Positions 6,917 through 15,712 of a DNA stretch of 64,000 bases are shown one piece after another. Made by a program: the position numbers and the translations under genes. The first letter of the stretch is position 1. The number at the start of each line of letters is the position of its first letter. Origin of the DNA: an uncultured Cyclobacteriaceae bacterium (GTDB taxonomy: Bacteria > Bacteroidota > Bacteroidia > Cytophagales > Cyclobacteriaceae). The stretch lies in NCBI GenBank assembly GCA_937146645.1, contig CAKZRQ010000057.1, forward strand, positions 1 to 64,000, in the 5' to 3' direction. The notes beneath the pieces were generated by a model. That model made no database searches. It worked only from the letters and a program-made list of their open reading frames with translations, and was not told where the DNA came from.

Positions 6917-6934
6917 GATCCGCCGCGGCGGATC
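6917..6934. repeat. Perfect 18-bp GC-rich palindrome GATCCGCCGCGGCGGATC inside a larger CGAGGA...TCCTCG inverted repeat
   Basis: Read directly from sequence. Confidence 0.9.
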
Positions 6935-6962: not shown

Positions 6963-7035
<73 letters not shown>

Positions 7036-8826: not shown

Positions 8827-9528
8827 TTGAAGAAGTACGAGATCATAGAAGACCATTTTAAGAAGAAAATCCAAAGTGGAGATTTTCCCGTGGATAGTCT
8901 TTTGCCTTCTGAATATGATATCTGTGCCCGATTCTCAGCGACTCGAACCACAGTCCGAAAGGCGCTGGATGAATTGCTAAGAGAGGGTTATATCAAAAAA
9001 GAACATGGTCGTGGTTCCAGGGTAATTGAGCGAATCAAAACCCTGGGGCTCCCTTCTGTCAAAGGTTTTTCCAATGCCATGAAACAGGAGGGGGATGCGG
9101 TTTTCACTCAGGAACCCATTATTCAAAAATGGTCTGATCAACAGATTTTTGCGTTATCCGATAAAGAGGGAGAAGGAGATTGTGTTTATTTCCAGCGTCT
9201 ACGCCTCATAGATCAGAAACCAGTGCTGGTGGAGAATAATTGGTATTCCGGAAGCATGCTTGAGCTGGTCCGTTCTGAAGAGTTCTTGGATGGTTCCTTT
9301 TTTAAAACCTTAAGCCAGCGATTTCATATCGATATCATAGGAGTGGAGCAGGAAATCATGGCGAAATCTGCTAGTGCTGAAATAGCGTCTATGCTGACGA
9401 TTCAAGAGGGTGATCCTGTCCTTTTCATAGCTGTCAGATATCAAACCAGTCTGGAAGACTTTCACATTTATGGAAGCTGGTTCTGCAATACGGAGGATTT
9501 TCCCATCGTCAGTAATACTTTTTCTTAA
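8827..9528 (+). CDS. GntR-family (HutC/UTRA) transcriptional regulator; apparent TTG start
   Basis: 'LLPSEYDICARFSATRTTVRKALDELLREGYIKKEHGRGSRV' GntR wHTH plus UTRA domain. Confidence 0.93.
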   Translation: MKKYEIIEDHFKKKIQSGDFPVDSLLPSEYDICARFSATRTTVRKALDELLREGYIKKEHGRGSRVIERIKTLGLPSVKGFSNAMKQEGDAVFTQEPIIQKWSDQQIFALSDKEGEGDCVYFQRLRLIDQKPVLVENNWYSGSMLELVRSEEFLDGSFFKTLSQRFHIDIIGVEQEIMAKSASAEIASMLTIQEGDPVLFIAVRYQTSLEDFHIYGSWFCNTEDFPIVSNTFS

Positions 9529-9542
9529 TTTTTTGTAGGTCT

Positions 9543-9564
9543 TCAACTTGTACGTACAAGTTGA
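9543..9564. promoter_or_regulatory. Putative GntR operator: 22-bp perfect palindrome TCAACTTGTACGTACAAGTTGA
   Basis: Perfect dyad lying between the regulator and the first catabolic gene. Confidence 0.8.
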
Positions 9565-9628
9565 GTTTAGTATCTTGAAAAGAATTGTTGAATTCACTGA
9601 AATCTCTGATAAACCTAAATACTGACAA

Positions 9629-10828
9629 ATGAATATTGCAATGCTTGGCTCCGGGTTTATTGCCCGTTTTTATGCCGAATCCCTTCACGCCCAGCGTCGA
9701 AAAGATCGCGTGGTAATGGTTTATTCTCGCAACGAAGAAAATGCCAAGCGCTATGCGAGCGATTACGATTTACCACATTACACCACCGACATGAATGAGG
9801 CCATTGCTCATCCAGATGTGGATGTGGTGCTGATTTCTTTACCGAATGATCTGCACGAAATGGCTGTGATGGCATGCGTTGAAGCAAAGAAGAATGTGAT
9901 CTGTACGAAACCATTGGGAAGAACAGCAGCTGAGGCAAAACGGATGTTAGATGCCGTGGAGGGAGCTGGGATTTTTGCAGGTTATCTGGAAGATTTATGC
10001 TACACACCCAAATTTCTTAAGTCCGTTGCCAGTGTGAAAAATGGTGATGTCGGTGATGTGCTTTGGACGAAGTCCAGAGAAGCCCACCCGGGACCTCACT
10101 CCGACTGGTTCTGGGATAAGGAAAGATCGGGTGGAGGAGCTATCATCGATCTGGGATGTCACTGTGTGGAAATCAGTAGGAATTTTATTGGGAAGAACAT
10201 CAAGCCCATGGAGGTGATGTGCTGGGCGGATACTCAGGTGCATCCCATCGATGCGGAGGATCATGCGATAGGCCTTGTGAAGTTTGCGAATGGAGCCATC
10301 GGGCAGTTTGAAGTAAGCTGGACCTTCCGAGGGGGGATGGATTTGCGGGATGAGGTAATGGGAACTGAGGGAACCATTTGGGTGAATAGCTTTCTTAGAA
10401 CAGGTTTTGAGATGTTCTCTACCGGAAAGGGAAATGAAGGGTATGTGGCCGAGAAAGCCGAGACGGCTACCGGCTGGCTTTTCCCGGTAGGGGATGAGGC
10501 TCATGAATTGGGATATCCACACATGTTTACGGATATGTTTTCGGCGATGGAAGAAGGGAGAGAGCCACTTGAGACCTTTTATGATGGCTATATCGTGAAT
10601 GCGATTTTGGATGCGGCTTTTAAGTCTGCGGAGACCAAGCAGTGGGAGCCAATTTTGATTGAGGACTGGCGTGGAGATGCTCCAGAAGACAGTCAGAGAC
10701 AATGGGAATCCTATGATGAGGAAAACTATCTGATCAAAGAAGAAATCCTTCCAAATGGGGATGTGAATTTGATTCTCAAGAATAAGGCAACAGGCAAAGT
10801 ATTCAAAAAAGTGACTCAGGCCGATTAA
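9629..10828 (+). CDS. Gfo/Idh/MocA family oxidoreductase
   Basis: 'MNIAMLGSGFIARFYAESL' Rossmann start; 'VLISLPNDLHEMAVMACVEAKKNVICTKPLGRTAAEAKRM'. Confidence 0.95.
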   Translation: MNIAMLGSGFIARFYAESLHAQRRKDRVVMVYSRNEENAKRYASDYDLPHYTTDMNEAIAHPDVDVVLISLPNDLHEMAVMACVEAKKNVICTKPLGRTAAEAKRMLDAVEGAGIFAGYLEDLCYTPKFLKSVASVKNGDVGDVLWTKSREAHPGPHSDWFWDKERSGGGAIIDLGCHCVEISRNFIGKNIKPMEVMCWADTQVHPIDAEDHAIGLVKFANGAIGQFEVSWTFRGGMDLRDEVMGTEGTIWVNSFLRTGFEMFSTGKGNEGYVAEKAETATGWLFPVGDEAHELGYPHMFTDMFSAMEEGREPLETFYDGYIVNAILDAAFKSAETKQWEPILIEDWRGDAPEDSQRQWESYDEENYLIKEEILPNGDVNLILKNKATGKVFKKVTQAD

Positions 10829-10842
10829 TAGACCTTATCCAA

Positions 10843-11631
10843 ATGGAATTCAAGAACACGGCTTATGTGATTATGGGAGGGACTTCAGGTCTTGGATTGG
10901 CTTCCTCCAAAGCTTTAATATCACAGGGTGCCAAAGTGATGGTTGTGGGTCGAAACCCGGAAACCTGTAAAGCTGCACAAGAAGAACTTGGGGAGGATGC
11001 CATTTCTCTTTCAGGAGACGCTACAGATCCTAAAACTGTTGAGACAGCCTTAACGAAAGCTCATGAGGCATTCGGTCAGGTCAACGGACTTTTCCATGTT
11101 GCCGGGGGCAGTGGAAGGAGATGGGGGGATGGCCCACTTCACTCCCTTACCTTGGATGGCTGGAACAAGACCATGGATTTAAACCTTACTTCACTCATGC
11201 TTTCAAACCGAGCTGCCGTGAATTATTTCCTTGATAATAAGATTCCAGGATCCATCTTGAATATGGGTTCAGTTTTGGGCTATTCTCCTTCGCCAAAATA
11301 CTTCACGACCCATGCCTATGCAGCGGCAAAGTCTGCAATCATCGGTTTTTCAAAGTCTATCGCTTCTTACTATGCCGAACACAAAATTCGAGTGAATGTA
11401 ATCGCTCCTAGTCTTTTTGTGACGCCTATGGCGCAAAGAGCGGCAAGTGATGAAGAGATCATGGGTTTCCTCAAAACGAAGCAGCCCTTGGATGGAGGAC
11501 GTGCTGGTGATCCTGATGATATCAATAACGCGGTACTTATGTTTTTGCATCCCGATTCGAAATTCATCACAGGACAGGTTCTGGCTGTCGATGGGGGTTG
11601 GACTCTAAGTGAAGGTCAATATATTTCCTGA
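10843..11631 (+). CDS. SDR-family NAD(P)-dependent oxidoreductase
   Basis: 'YVIMGGTSGLGLASSKAL' and 'YAAAKSAIIGFSKSIASYYAEHKIRVNVIAPS'. Confidence 0.95.
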   Translation: MEFKNTAYVIMGGTSGLGLASSKALISQGAKVMVVGRNPETCKAAQEELGEDAISLSGDATDPKTVETALTKAHEAFGQVNGLFHVAGGSGRRWGDGPLHSLTLDGWNKTMDLNLTSLMLSNRAAVNYFLDNKIPGSILNMGSVLGYSPSPKYFTTHAYAAAKSAIIGFSKSIASYYAEHKIRVNVIAPSLFVTPMAQRAASDEEIMGFLKTKQPLDGGRAGDPDDINNAVLMFLHPDSKFITGQVLAVDGGWTLSEGQYIS

Positions 11632-11673
11632 TATGATTTCGGTTTTATCACATAATCCATTGCGAAATACCTG

Positions 11674-12576
11674 ATGCACTATCTGGGAATCGATATTGGT
11701 GGCACCAAAGTTAAAACACTCATTTTGAATGAGCAAAGTGATGTGATTCATCAGGATGAAGTTTTTACCGAGGATGGTTCTGGGGAGCTTTGGAAGCAGA
11801 AGATTATTCAAATCCTTAATAGGCAATTTTCAACCTATGGGAAAAGGGAATTGGTTTGTGGAATCTCCGCCCCAGGACTCGTAGATGAAACGAATCGCAA
11901 AACAATGTACATGCCGGAACGGCTTCAGGGAATTGAAAATTACAATTGGTCTGAAGAGCTGGGCCAGGAAATATGGGCGCTAAATGACGGTCATTCTGCC
12001 TGTCTGGCTGAATACGAGAGCTTTTTTAAAAAAGAAGGTGTTCAGAATTTGGTGATGCTCACTCTGGGAACTGGAGTTGGTGGAGGAATTGTCATCAATG
12101 GAGAACTCTACCAAGGGAAGCTTCAGCGGGCTGGTCATTTAGGACATATGACTGCTGACCTCCATGGCCCGAACACCATGACCAATATGCCGGGCAGTCT
12201 AGAGTATGCCATAGGAAACTTTTCAGTTGGCCAAAGAACTGAAGGAAAATTTCAAACGGTACTTGATCTGGTCAAGGCTTTCGAAAATGGAGATGAGATC
12301 GCTAAAAGATTTTGGTATGAAGCGGTGGAGAAACTGGCTGTTTCATTGGCAGGATTAAATAACATTTTAGCACCAGAGGTCATCGTTTTGGGTGGTGGAA
12401 TTACGAAAGGAGCCGGCGATTCCCTTCTTAAGCCACTGGCAGAATTCATGGAAAAATTCGAGTGGAGACCTGGTGGCAATAAAGTCCGAATCGAAACGGC
12501 TAAATACGGAACCTTTGCAGGAGCGATAGGGGCGGCACTTTTCGCCAAAAAACAACACGAAAAAGGAATCAAATGA
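11674..12576 (+). CDS. ROK-family protein/sugar kinase
   Basis: 'YLGIDIGGTKVKTLIL', 'LTLGTGVGGGIVINGELYQGKLQRAGHLGHM'. Confidence 0.92.
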   Translation: MHYLGIDIGGTKVKTLILNEQSDVIHQDEVFTEDGSGELWKQKIIQILNRQFSTYGKRELVCGISAPGLVDETNRKTMYMPERLQGIENYNWSEELGQEIWALNDGHSACLAEYESFFKKEGVQNLVMLTLGTGVGGGIVINGELYQGKLQRAGHLGHMTADLHGPNTMTNMPGSLEYAIGNFSVGQRTEGKFQTVLDLVKAFENGDEIAKRFWYEAVEKLAVSLAGLNNILAPEVIVLGGGITKGAGDSLLKPLAEFMEKFEWRPGGNKVRIETAKYGTFAGAIGAALFAKKQHEKGIK

Positions 12577-13352
12577 GTCTTACCAAAGAATACCTAGAGA
12601 AAGGGCGTGAGATAATTTCAACCGTTGAAAAGCAAGAACCGATCATTCAGGAAGTGGCCAAAATCTTTGCTGAATCGATCTTAAATGGGCGAATGGTCCA
12701 TCTTTTTGGCTCGGGTCACAGCCGAATTATGGTGGAGGAAATGTGGCCACGCTATGGTTCATTTCCTGGTTTTAACCCCATCGTCGAGCTTTCACTATCC
12801 TTCCATAATTTGGTGGTTGGTGCCAATGGACAAAGACAGGCCATGTTCCTGGAGAACATTCCAGGACTTGCTGATCGAATCCTTAGGAACTTCGATTTGA
12901 GCACTCAGGATACCGCTTTGGTGATCTCTTCCAGTGGTTGCAATGTGGTGCCTATTGAAATGGCAGAGTTATTTCAAAAAAATGGGATCAAGGTAGCTGC
13001 TTTGGTCAGTAAACTGCATTTGGAAGGAAGTACTTCAAAAAGAGCAGATGGCAAGAAACTGACTGATTTCGCTGACTATGTACTTGACACAGGCGCACCG
13101 CTAGGGGATGCCATGATCTATTTGGATGGATTGGATAGTCCTGTTTCTCCGGGGTCTACTCTTGGTGGCGTCATGATTATCAACACCATTAAAGCTGAGG
13201 TGGCTAAAATTCTTCATGAAAGTGGGCATTCGCCCAAAGTGCTAAGCAGTGGTAAGATAGTGGGAGATAAGAGAGCCGTGGAGCTTTTTGAAAGTGCGTA
13301 TGATGAGCATGCCCATAGAATGGCAAAGCTTTATGAAAATGTTGGGAAGTAA
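12573..13352 (+). CDS. SIS-domain protein (UPF0309-like, phosphosugar isomerase fold)
   Basis: 'VHLFGSGHSRIMVEEMWPRYGSFPGFNPI' and 'DTALVISSSGCNVVPIEMAELFQKNGIKVAAL'; 4-bp overlap with the ROK gene. Confidence 0.88.
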   Translation: MSLTKEYLEKGREIISTVEKQEPIIQEVAKIFAESILNGRMVHLFGSGHSRIMVEEMWPRYGSFPGFNPIVELSLSFHNLVVGANGQRQAMFLENIPGLADRILRNFDLSTQDTALVISSSGCNVVPIEMAELFQKNGIKVAALVSKLHLEGSTSKRADGKKLTDFADYVLDTGAPLGDAMIYLDGLDSPVSPGSTLGGVMIINTIKAEVAKILHESGHSPKVLSSGKIVGDKRAVELFESAYDEHAHRMAKLYENVGK

Positions 13353-13384
13353 ACCTATTTGAAGAACACTTAAACTCTGTGGAT

Positions 13385-14743
13385 ATGAGTTTTTCTCCAG
13401 TCATTCAGAAAAGTTACGACACCGATATTCTGATAATCGGAAGTGGAAGCGCCGGATCTGTTGCAGCTTTGGCGGCAGCCGATTCCAAGTACAAGGTTAC
13501 CTTGGTGGAACGCTACGGATTTCCAGGTGGAACGTCCACCCAAATGCTGGATACTTTTTATGGCTTTTACACCCCTTCAGAGAGTCCAAGGAAGATCGTG
13601 GGTGGGATTCCTGATCTGATCGTTAATCAGCTGAATAAATCTGGAGATATTTTCCTTCGACCTAATACCTATGGGGCGGGAACAGGTGTGAATTATAATC
13701 CGGAGCGATTAAAACTGGTTTGGGATCAGCTTTTCGCGACTCGTGGAGTAGAGGTTTTCTATCATAGCACCCTTGTGGGAGTCGAAGATACTTCTGAAGT
13801 AAAGAGCTGTGTGTTTTTTTATAAAGGTCTAGGGTTTTTCCGGATTCGAGCGAAGCGAGTGATTGATGCCTCTGGCGATGCGGATTATTGCCGATGGGCA
13901 GGCTTGCACTTTGAGAGGGCCGGCGAAAAGGAACCCGCGCAAAGTTTGACCACCACCTTCCGAATGAGCAATGTGGATTTGGAAGAGTTTGAACACGCCG
14001 GTGGAAAAAAGATGCTGAAAGAAAAGATGTCGGAGGCTTTCAATTCTGGAACCCATGCGCTACCCAGAAAAGAGGGATCCGCACACGAAATGTGCCAGCC
14101 AAAATGCATTTCTACTGTGGCCGTGAAGGTGGTGGATCGAAACGCTCTAGATCTAAAAGAACTGACTGAAGCAGAAATTGAGGGTAGGAAACAGTCATTT
14201 ATCTACGAGGAGTTTTTCAGGGATATGGTGCCCGGTTATCAGAATTCAAAGGTTATTGGCCTATCGCATCAGATTGGCGTGAGAGAGACAAGAAGAGTCT
14301 ATGGCTTGCATCGTTTGACCAAGGAAGATTGTATGAGTGCCAAGACTTTTGAGGATCAGATTTTCCTTTGTGGAGCTCCGATTGAAGATCATAGGAAGAC
14401 TAAAAATGGCTCAGAAACATATTGGCAGTATGTTCCGGATGGAGGAGTTTATGGAGTACCGTATGGGACTATTGTGCCTCGGGAAAGTGAGAATACCTGG
14501 GTGGTGGGAAGATGTTTTTCTGCGACTCATGATGCGCATGCTTCATGTCGATCTATGGCGCAAACCATGAGTATGGGGCAGGCTGCTGGTTTTGCTGCAG
14601 TGATAACCTTGGATGAGGATCAGGATGCAAAGGACATTTCCATTTCCACACTTCAATCAAAAATTATTCAAAATGGGGGCATTCTAGAAATGCCTGAAGA
14701 GATCGCAGATACCAGCCGAGATGGATGGGGTAAATATTTGTAA
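13385..14743 (+). CDS. FAD-dependent oxidoreductase (FAD_oxidored type)
   Basis: 'DTDILIIGSGSAGSVAALAAADSKYKVTLVERYGFPGGTST' dinucleotide-binding motif and C-terminal 'WVVGRCFSATHDAHASCRSMAQTMSMGQAAGFAA'. Confidence 0.9.
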   Translation: MSFSPVIQKSYDTDILIIGSGSAGSVAALAAADSKYKVTLVERYGFPGGTSTQMLDTFYGFYTPSESPRKIVGGIPDLIVNQLNKSGDIFLRPNTYGAGTGVNYNPERLKLVWDQLFATRGVEVFYHSTLVGVEDTSEVKSCVFFYKGLGFFRIRAKRVIDASGDADYCRWAGLHFERAGEKEPAQSLTTTFRMSNVDLEEFEHAGGKKMLKEKMSEAFNSGTHALPRKEGSAHEMCQPKCISTVAVKVVDRNALDLKELTEAEIEGRKQSFIYEEFFRDMVPGYQNSKVIGLSHQIGVRETRRVYGLHRLTKEDCMSAKTFEDQIFLCGAPIEDHRKTKNGSETYWQYVPDGGVYGVPYGTIVPRESENTWVVGRCFSATHDAHASCRSMAQTMSMGQAAGFAAVITLDEDQDAKDISISTLQSKIIQNGGILEMPEEIADTSRDGWGKYL

Positions 14744-14749
14744 GAAAAC

Positions 14750-15712
14750 ATGGAGAAGACTTTTTTCAGAACAGTTTTGGGAGATTTTCCCTCTGAACAA
14801 ATGGGATTAACCTATGCTCACGAGCATATCATCATCGAAGATTCCTATGTGACTGCAAAGCACCCTGAGTTCTTATTGAATGATATCGGTAAAATTTCAA
14901 CCGAGCTCAAGGAGTTCTACGATGCGGGTGGACGAACTGTAGTAGACACAATGCCTTCAAATTCGGGAAGGAATGTCCTAAAATCTGCGGAATTGACGAG
15001 GCTAACGGGAGTTCGGATTATCGTTCCCACCGGCATTCATTTGGAGATTTATTATCCAGAAAACCACTGGCGATATTCCATATCTGAGGATCAACTGACC
15101 GAGCTATTTATAGCTGATATTGAAAAGGGAATTGATGAGTTTGATTACACAGGGCCTTTTGTGAAGCGGACTGGGCATAAGGCGGGTATGATCAAATTGG
15201 CTACGGGTGATCAAAAGTTTTCAAAGCATCAGGAGATGGTCTTTCAAGCTGTTGTCAATGCTCATCTAGCTACAGGTGCACCTATTTTGACGCATACTAA
15301 CTTTGGCCGACAGGCCTATGAGCAGGCAAAACTTTTCGAAAAGCTAGGCGCAAAGCTAGACCATGTGGTGCTTTCGCATGTGGATAGAGCTAAGGAAGTG
15401 GATTACAATCGGAAGGTTCTGGATGTAGGCGTGAGGCTGGAGTATGATAGCGCATTTCGATGGGGGCTAAAGAATGAGCCGAATTATACTTTGCAGTTGG
15501 TGGAGAATCTGGCTCCGGAGTTTCCAGAGCAGATAGTGATGGGTATGGATATGGCGAAGAATGCGTATTGGAAGAGTTATGGAGGCCAACCAGGACTGAA
15601 TTACCTCATTGAAACGATGCCTGAATTTTTAAATGAAAGAGGATTAAGTGAGCATTTTCAAAAAATATTTTTTGATAATCCTAAACGTTTGTATAGCTTT
15701 TTTAAAGTATAA
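14750..15712 (+). CDS. Phosphotriesterase-family amidohydrolase (PTE-like, possible lactonase)
   Basis: 'GLTYAHEHIII' HxH, 'KAGMIKLATG' Lys, 'PILTHTNFG', 'VVLSHVDR', 'VMGMDMAK' metal ligands all present. Confidence 0.9.
   Translation: MEKTFFRTVLGDFPSEQMGLTYAHEHIIIEDSYVTAKHPEFLLNDIGKISTELKEFYDAGGRTVVDTMPSNSGRNVLKSAELTRLTGVRIIVPTGIHLEIYYPENHWRYSISEDQLTELFIADIEKGIDEFDYTGPFVKRTGHKAGMIKLATGDQKFSKHQEMVFQAVVNAHLATGAPILTHTNFGRQAYEQAKLFEKLGAKLDHVVLSHVDRAKEVDYNRKVLDVGVRLEYDSAFRWGLKNEPNYTLQLVENLAPEFPEQIVMGMDMAKNAYWKSYGGQPGLNYLIETMPEFLNERGLSEHFQKIFFDNPKRLYSFFKV

Follow-up and report, generated by a model that had tools for sequence, protein, structure and literature searches.

Palindrome, regulator gene and downstream operon

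Within the window, i.e., the whole 64,000-nucleotide stretch of DNA analyzed here, a gene for a GntR-family protein is followed by a perfect inverted repeat, TCAACTTGTACGTACAAGTTGA, and then by six co-directional genes spanning positions 9629–15712 (Table 1). The regulator combines an N-terminal GntR winged-helix domain (PF00392, 50.7 bits for a cut-off of 27) with a C-terminal UTRA domain (PF07702, 59.8 bits for a cut-off of 23.8), and a genome-wide profile search identified it as the only UTRA match in the genome. Since its best score against the named equivalogs TreR, HutC, PhnF, and GntR_LSA1692 was 100.9 bits, below the curated cut-off of 275, we classified it as a HutC-type regulator without assigned specificity. 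Judged by the protein families that they encode, the six downstream genes appear to form an operon for the catabolism of a sugar or sugar acid. The final hydrolase is closest to phospho-furanose lactonase (NF045706, 182.5 bits, under the cut-off of 630), an enzyme on which a literature search returned nothing useful. Within the family, 12 other genomes encode close relatives of this last enzyme. Most of these 12 keep the gene order SDR-ROK-SIS-FAD-PTE, which is missing from most sampled same-genus genomes, and these genes look like an accessory catabolic operon. The window’s genome also encodes many type IX secretion tails, a trait that identifies it as Bacteroidota.

Table 1 Features of the regulator–operon region, in window coordinates
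Feature	Position	Strand	Basis or remark
GntR-family repressor gene, HutC/UTRA type, 233 aa, TTG start	8827..9528	+	Pfam
Predicted operator, perfect 22-bp palindrome	9543..9564	.	Core ACTTGTACGTACAAGT at 9546-9561
Left-arm TTG, putative -33 box, 20 nt ahead of -7 box	9548..9550	+	Spacing; role inferred
Bacteroidota -7-like box TATCTTG (TAnnTTG form)	9571..9577	+	Fixed position after palindrome in relatives
Gfo/Idh/MocA-type oxidoreductase, operon gene 1	9629..10828	+	Pfam; 76% identical in L105, L106
Short-chain dehydrogenase	10843..11631	+	Pfam; 70% in L105 and L106
ROK-family sugar kinase	11674..12576	+	Pfam, 148.9 bits; 54-56% in L105 and L106
SIS-domain sugar isomerase-like protein, PRK02947 subfamily	12573..13352	+	NCBIfam NF002805, 253.7 bits (cut-off 135)
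FAD-dependent oxidoreductase	13379..14743	+	Pfam FAD_oxidored, 314 bits
Phosphotriesterase-family hydrolase, final operon gene	14750..15712	+	Pfam PTE, 150.6 bits

The palindrome lies between the GntR gene and the operon, as the initial annotation had reported, 14 bases past the end of the stop codon of gntR and 64 bases ahead of the start codon (ATG) of operon gene 1; its 22-bp extent and perfect symmetry were confirmed from the sequence, and it is the longest perfect palindrome without spacer in the window. Base composition leads to an expectation of 0.02 perfect 22-bp palindromes per 64 kb and 1.4 in the 4.3-Mb genome, compared to 2.5e-5 in the 100-bp gap between gntR and the operon, so that the place carries more weight than the palindrome by itself. 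Another perfect palindrome, GATCCGCCGCGGCGGATC, measures 18 bp and is found at positions 6917–6934, just ahead of a tRNA gene (6963–7035).

The 16-bp core occurs once in the genome, with zero other copies at 1 or 2 mismatches. The motif with a free centre, ACTTGTANNTACAAGT, yielded a single exact site plus one site with 1 mismatch, the latter near a contig end and overlapping an ORF. When the regulon search in this genome was relaxed, matches fell below the reversed-pattern controls (8 vs 23 for the core at ≤3 mismatches, 12 vs 27 for the free-centre motif at ≤2 mismatches), and hence we claim no regulon there; with a single-copy site, the genome itself offers no regulon-level support. The wider regulon, e.g., a transporter, that a genome-wide motif search had been expected to reveal was thus not recovered.

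Motif and putative promoter architecture beside related regulators

Across a sample of 198 genomes of the family, most relatives of the regulator (31–48% identity) carry ACTTGTnnnnACAAGT 44–310 bp upstream of their own gene, and relatives from other families of the same order likewise have it upstream of the regulator gene. An unbiased search of the 198 genomes for exact ACTTGTANNTACAAGT returned 25 places in 18 genomes, while the reversed-pattern control returned 12 places. A strong relative of the regulator is encoded in 17 of these 18 motif-bearing genomes (Fisher p=3e-17 for motif and gene co-occurrence, window’s genome excluded), and, by our own count, 18 of the 25 places are directly upstream of the relative’s gene or, in the window, just before the operon; the motif sites share descent, and these counts are not fully independent. 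Gene neighbourhoods of the relatives vary widely, including aldolases, sugar kinases, 2-oxoacid dehydrogenases, and sulfatases, so the motif tracks the regulator and not any one operon. A site upstream of gntR, as in these relatives, would normally represent an autoregulation arrangement. Compared to most relatives, the window site lies at the opposite end of gntR, which counts against the operator reading; given this position, the window gntR is probably not controlled by the palindrome, which should act on the enzymes only.

Several of these neighbourhoods have features of their own. Three genomes (G014, G056, and G183; loci L074, L075, L076, L077, L078, and L079) harbor extra motif copies that lie apart from gntR, in all three ahead of a gene with the size of an M20 peptidase (Pfam check for G183 only) and, in G183, also ahead of a sodium:solute symporter, which suggests real multi-site regulons in these genomes. 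At L067, L071, L084, and L085, a related GntR gene leads a conserved cluster encoding an aldolase of the DeoC/LacD type, a kinase resembling ketohexokinase, and a Gfo/Idh oxidoreductase, with a sulfatase nearby in L085; this cluster looks like a sugar catabolic locus, with families checked in L067 and the other three matched by gene size and order. In the subclade of L068, L070, L081, and L083, the motif separates gntR from divergently oriented genes for the E2 and E1 components of a 2-oxoacid dehydrogenase, which a HutC-type regulator would not usually target; the family assignments were checked for L070 and in part for L081.

The motif also has a fixed relationship to a promoter-like element. 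A TAnn(T)TTG box was found within 24 nt downstream of the site for 27 of 39 non-redundant sites, and on the upstream side for 4 of 39 (shuffles: mean 1.8, maximum 7). In all but one of the sites with the box (26/27), the spacing from the left-arm TTG to the -7 box is 19 or 20 nt. Bacteroidota sigma-ABfr promoters have TTTG as their -33 and TAnnTTTG as their -7 consensus element (PMC7366714), and a TAnnTTGY form has been described in Flavobacterium (PMC9723704); the window box has the shorter form, one T short of TAnnTTTG, which speaks against the operator–promoter reading. The sites resemble sigma-ABfr promoters in that TAnn(T)TTG, where present, is 19–20 nt past the left-arm TTG, and differ from them in that the -33 element is apparently built into the operator. 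With the -7 box 20 nt from this TTG in the window, the predicted operator overlaps the putative -33 region; a dimer on the palindrome would cover this region and should block RNA polymerase.

These patterns bear on whether the palindrome could instead be a transcription terminator or RNA hairpin of the gntR transcript. It can fold into a stem of 9 bp capped by a 4-nt loop and trailed by a weak T-rich tail (-13.9 kcal/mol, z -2.3), and a permissive terminator scan flags it, where 1.0 such flags are expected by chance; yet the stem has just 3 G-C pairs, followed by the tail TTTAGTATCT. In relatives, moreover, the same sequence is upstream of gntR or the operon, a position from which a terminator would shut down the very genes that it precedes, and conservation concerns the sequence of the half-sites, beyond mere pairing, and its placement relative to the promoter box. 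Contradicted by the place of the site in relatives and with the permissive flag as its one hit, the terminator was rejected as very improbable.

Regulators and sites ahead of the same operon

Two same-genus genomes, G369 (L105) and G343 (L106), encode the operon with enzymes 54–82% identical to those of the window. Both carry CAACTTGTATAGACAAGTTG (read on one strand) before the first operon gene, there an extra xylose-isomerase-like gene, and in L106 the stretch past the palindrome, GGGTTTTCTATCTTG, agrees with GAGTTTAGTATCTTG of the window in spacing and box, with TATCTTG likewise as the -7 box at the window’s spacing. In two further genomes (G049 and G114), the operon starts with a GntR gene and AAAGTTGTATAGACAACTTT is found ahead of that gene. 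For the remaining operons, no linked GntR gene of the same type was detected in the fetched stretch; L107 has a distant GntR relative (26%) ~10 kb from the operon.

The regulators of L105 and L106 are just 35–36% identical to the window GntR, while the enzymes are far closer, and the centre of their palindromes is ATAG vs ACGT in the window. In the tree, the window GntR and those of L060–L062 form one clade (100/99 support) in which all 4 members have ACGT-centred sites, whereas forced grouping of the window GntR, which has a long branch, with L105 and L106 was rejected (p-AU 1e-4). The recognition helix follows the same division: the ACGT-centred group shares R-T-T-x-R-K-A-L-D-E-L, compared to R-M-T-V-R-N in L105 and L106 with their ATAG centres. 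In the simplest reading, regulator and operator appear to have been replaced together before the same operon.

That the palindrome serves another regulator, e.g., one encoded outside the locus, would fit with its not being upstream of gntR in the window. We find this hardly credible given that the motif tracks the regulator’s protein family through many gene neighbourhoods, that the palindrome centre tracks the protein clade, and that the adjacent GntR is the sole UTRA regulator in the genome. A chance feature, for which one could invoke the ~1.4 perfect 22-bp palindromes expected genome-wide, is contradicted by the sequence conservation beside relatives as well as by the 2.5e-5 expected in the gntR–operon gap, and its probability is next to nil.

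Proposed regulation and relation to known repressors

We consider with high confidence that the palindrome serves the neighbouring GntR/HutC-type repressor as its operator and controls the six-gene sugar operon, a reading based on its conservation beside related regulators, the fixed -7 spacing, and its conservation before the same operon. This agrees with the initial annotation, which had linked the palindrome to the adjacent GntR as operator for the operon and now finds support from comparative genomics. Under this operator reading, a dimer of the 8827–9528 protein would bind the half-sites ACTTGTAC/GTACAAGT over the -33 region (TTG 9548–9550, -7 box 9571–9577), keeping RNA polymerase off and the operon (9629–15712) silent, until a pathway metabolite, probably a phosphorylated sugar produced by the ROK kinase, would bind to the UTRA domain, upon which the repressor would leave the site. 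Binding, repression, inducer, and transcription start are all inferred here from comparisons at the sequence level.

HutC-subfamily operators follow a rule in which a palindrome has GT and AC 4 nt apart, GT-N4-AC (PMC4494728). The window site conforms to this pattern as CTT-GT-ACGT-AC-AAG, and GT and AC are kept in 39 of 39 sites, in part through the choice of sites. As in the HutC-subfamily repressors NagR/YvoA, DasR, TreR, and HutC, the window protein has GntR and UTRA domains, and its GT-N4-AC palindrome is next to the sugar genes it is predicted to regulate; protein and palindrome are very likely a HutC-type repressor/operator pair, with the protein a predicted sugar regulator. For the best solved relative, NagR (E 2e-14), Arg38 and Arg48 contact two guanines (PMC4333415): Arg48 is kept as Arg40 in the window protein, while Tyr30 takes the place of Arg38 (most relatives have Asn), and the window site reads TG at the position of the GG of NagR sites, a residue comparison that fits the window protein to its site. 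NagR sites in B. subtilis are imperfect, while the window site is perfect.

Some likeness extends to AraR, whose C-terminal domain is LacI-like, not UTRA, and whose structure (PDB 4egy) is matched by the GntR-type DNA-binding domain of the window protein (E 5e-5). AraR has been assigned to a distinct, minor subfamily of GntR regulators owing to its different C-terminal domain, and has Asn at HTH position 28 (PMC4494728), as do most relatives of the window GntR. The window site agrees with the Bacillus subtilis AraR consensus At(T/A)tGTaCGTAcaa(A/T)T (PMC4218819) at 14 of 16 positions, ACGT centre included.

The operator type itself is already known, and the operator is an ordinary kind of switch, found again beside related repressors of many Bacteroidota. 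Literature searches for the palindrome sequence and for Bacteroidetes UTRA regulons found no paper describing this site, and a comparative study of HutC-type regulons included one Bacteroidota regulator (PMC4494728). What is new is the promoter-overlapping architecture across Bacteroidota relatives and, apparently, the joint exchange of regulator and site. We lean slightly towards a broader view in which a large Bacteroidota group of GntR/UTRA repressors would use one portable operator module, with the left half-site as the -33 box at a fixed distance from the -7 box, where regulator and operator travel jointly and can replace another pair before an unchanged operon, the window being one such exchange. 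For Bacteroidota, the gain is a searchable motif, a promoter architecture, and ~40 regulator–site pairs, and the apparent joint exchange before one operon provides a compact natural test of recognition-helix residues against the site centre.
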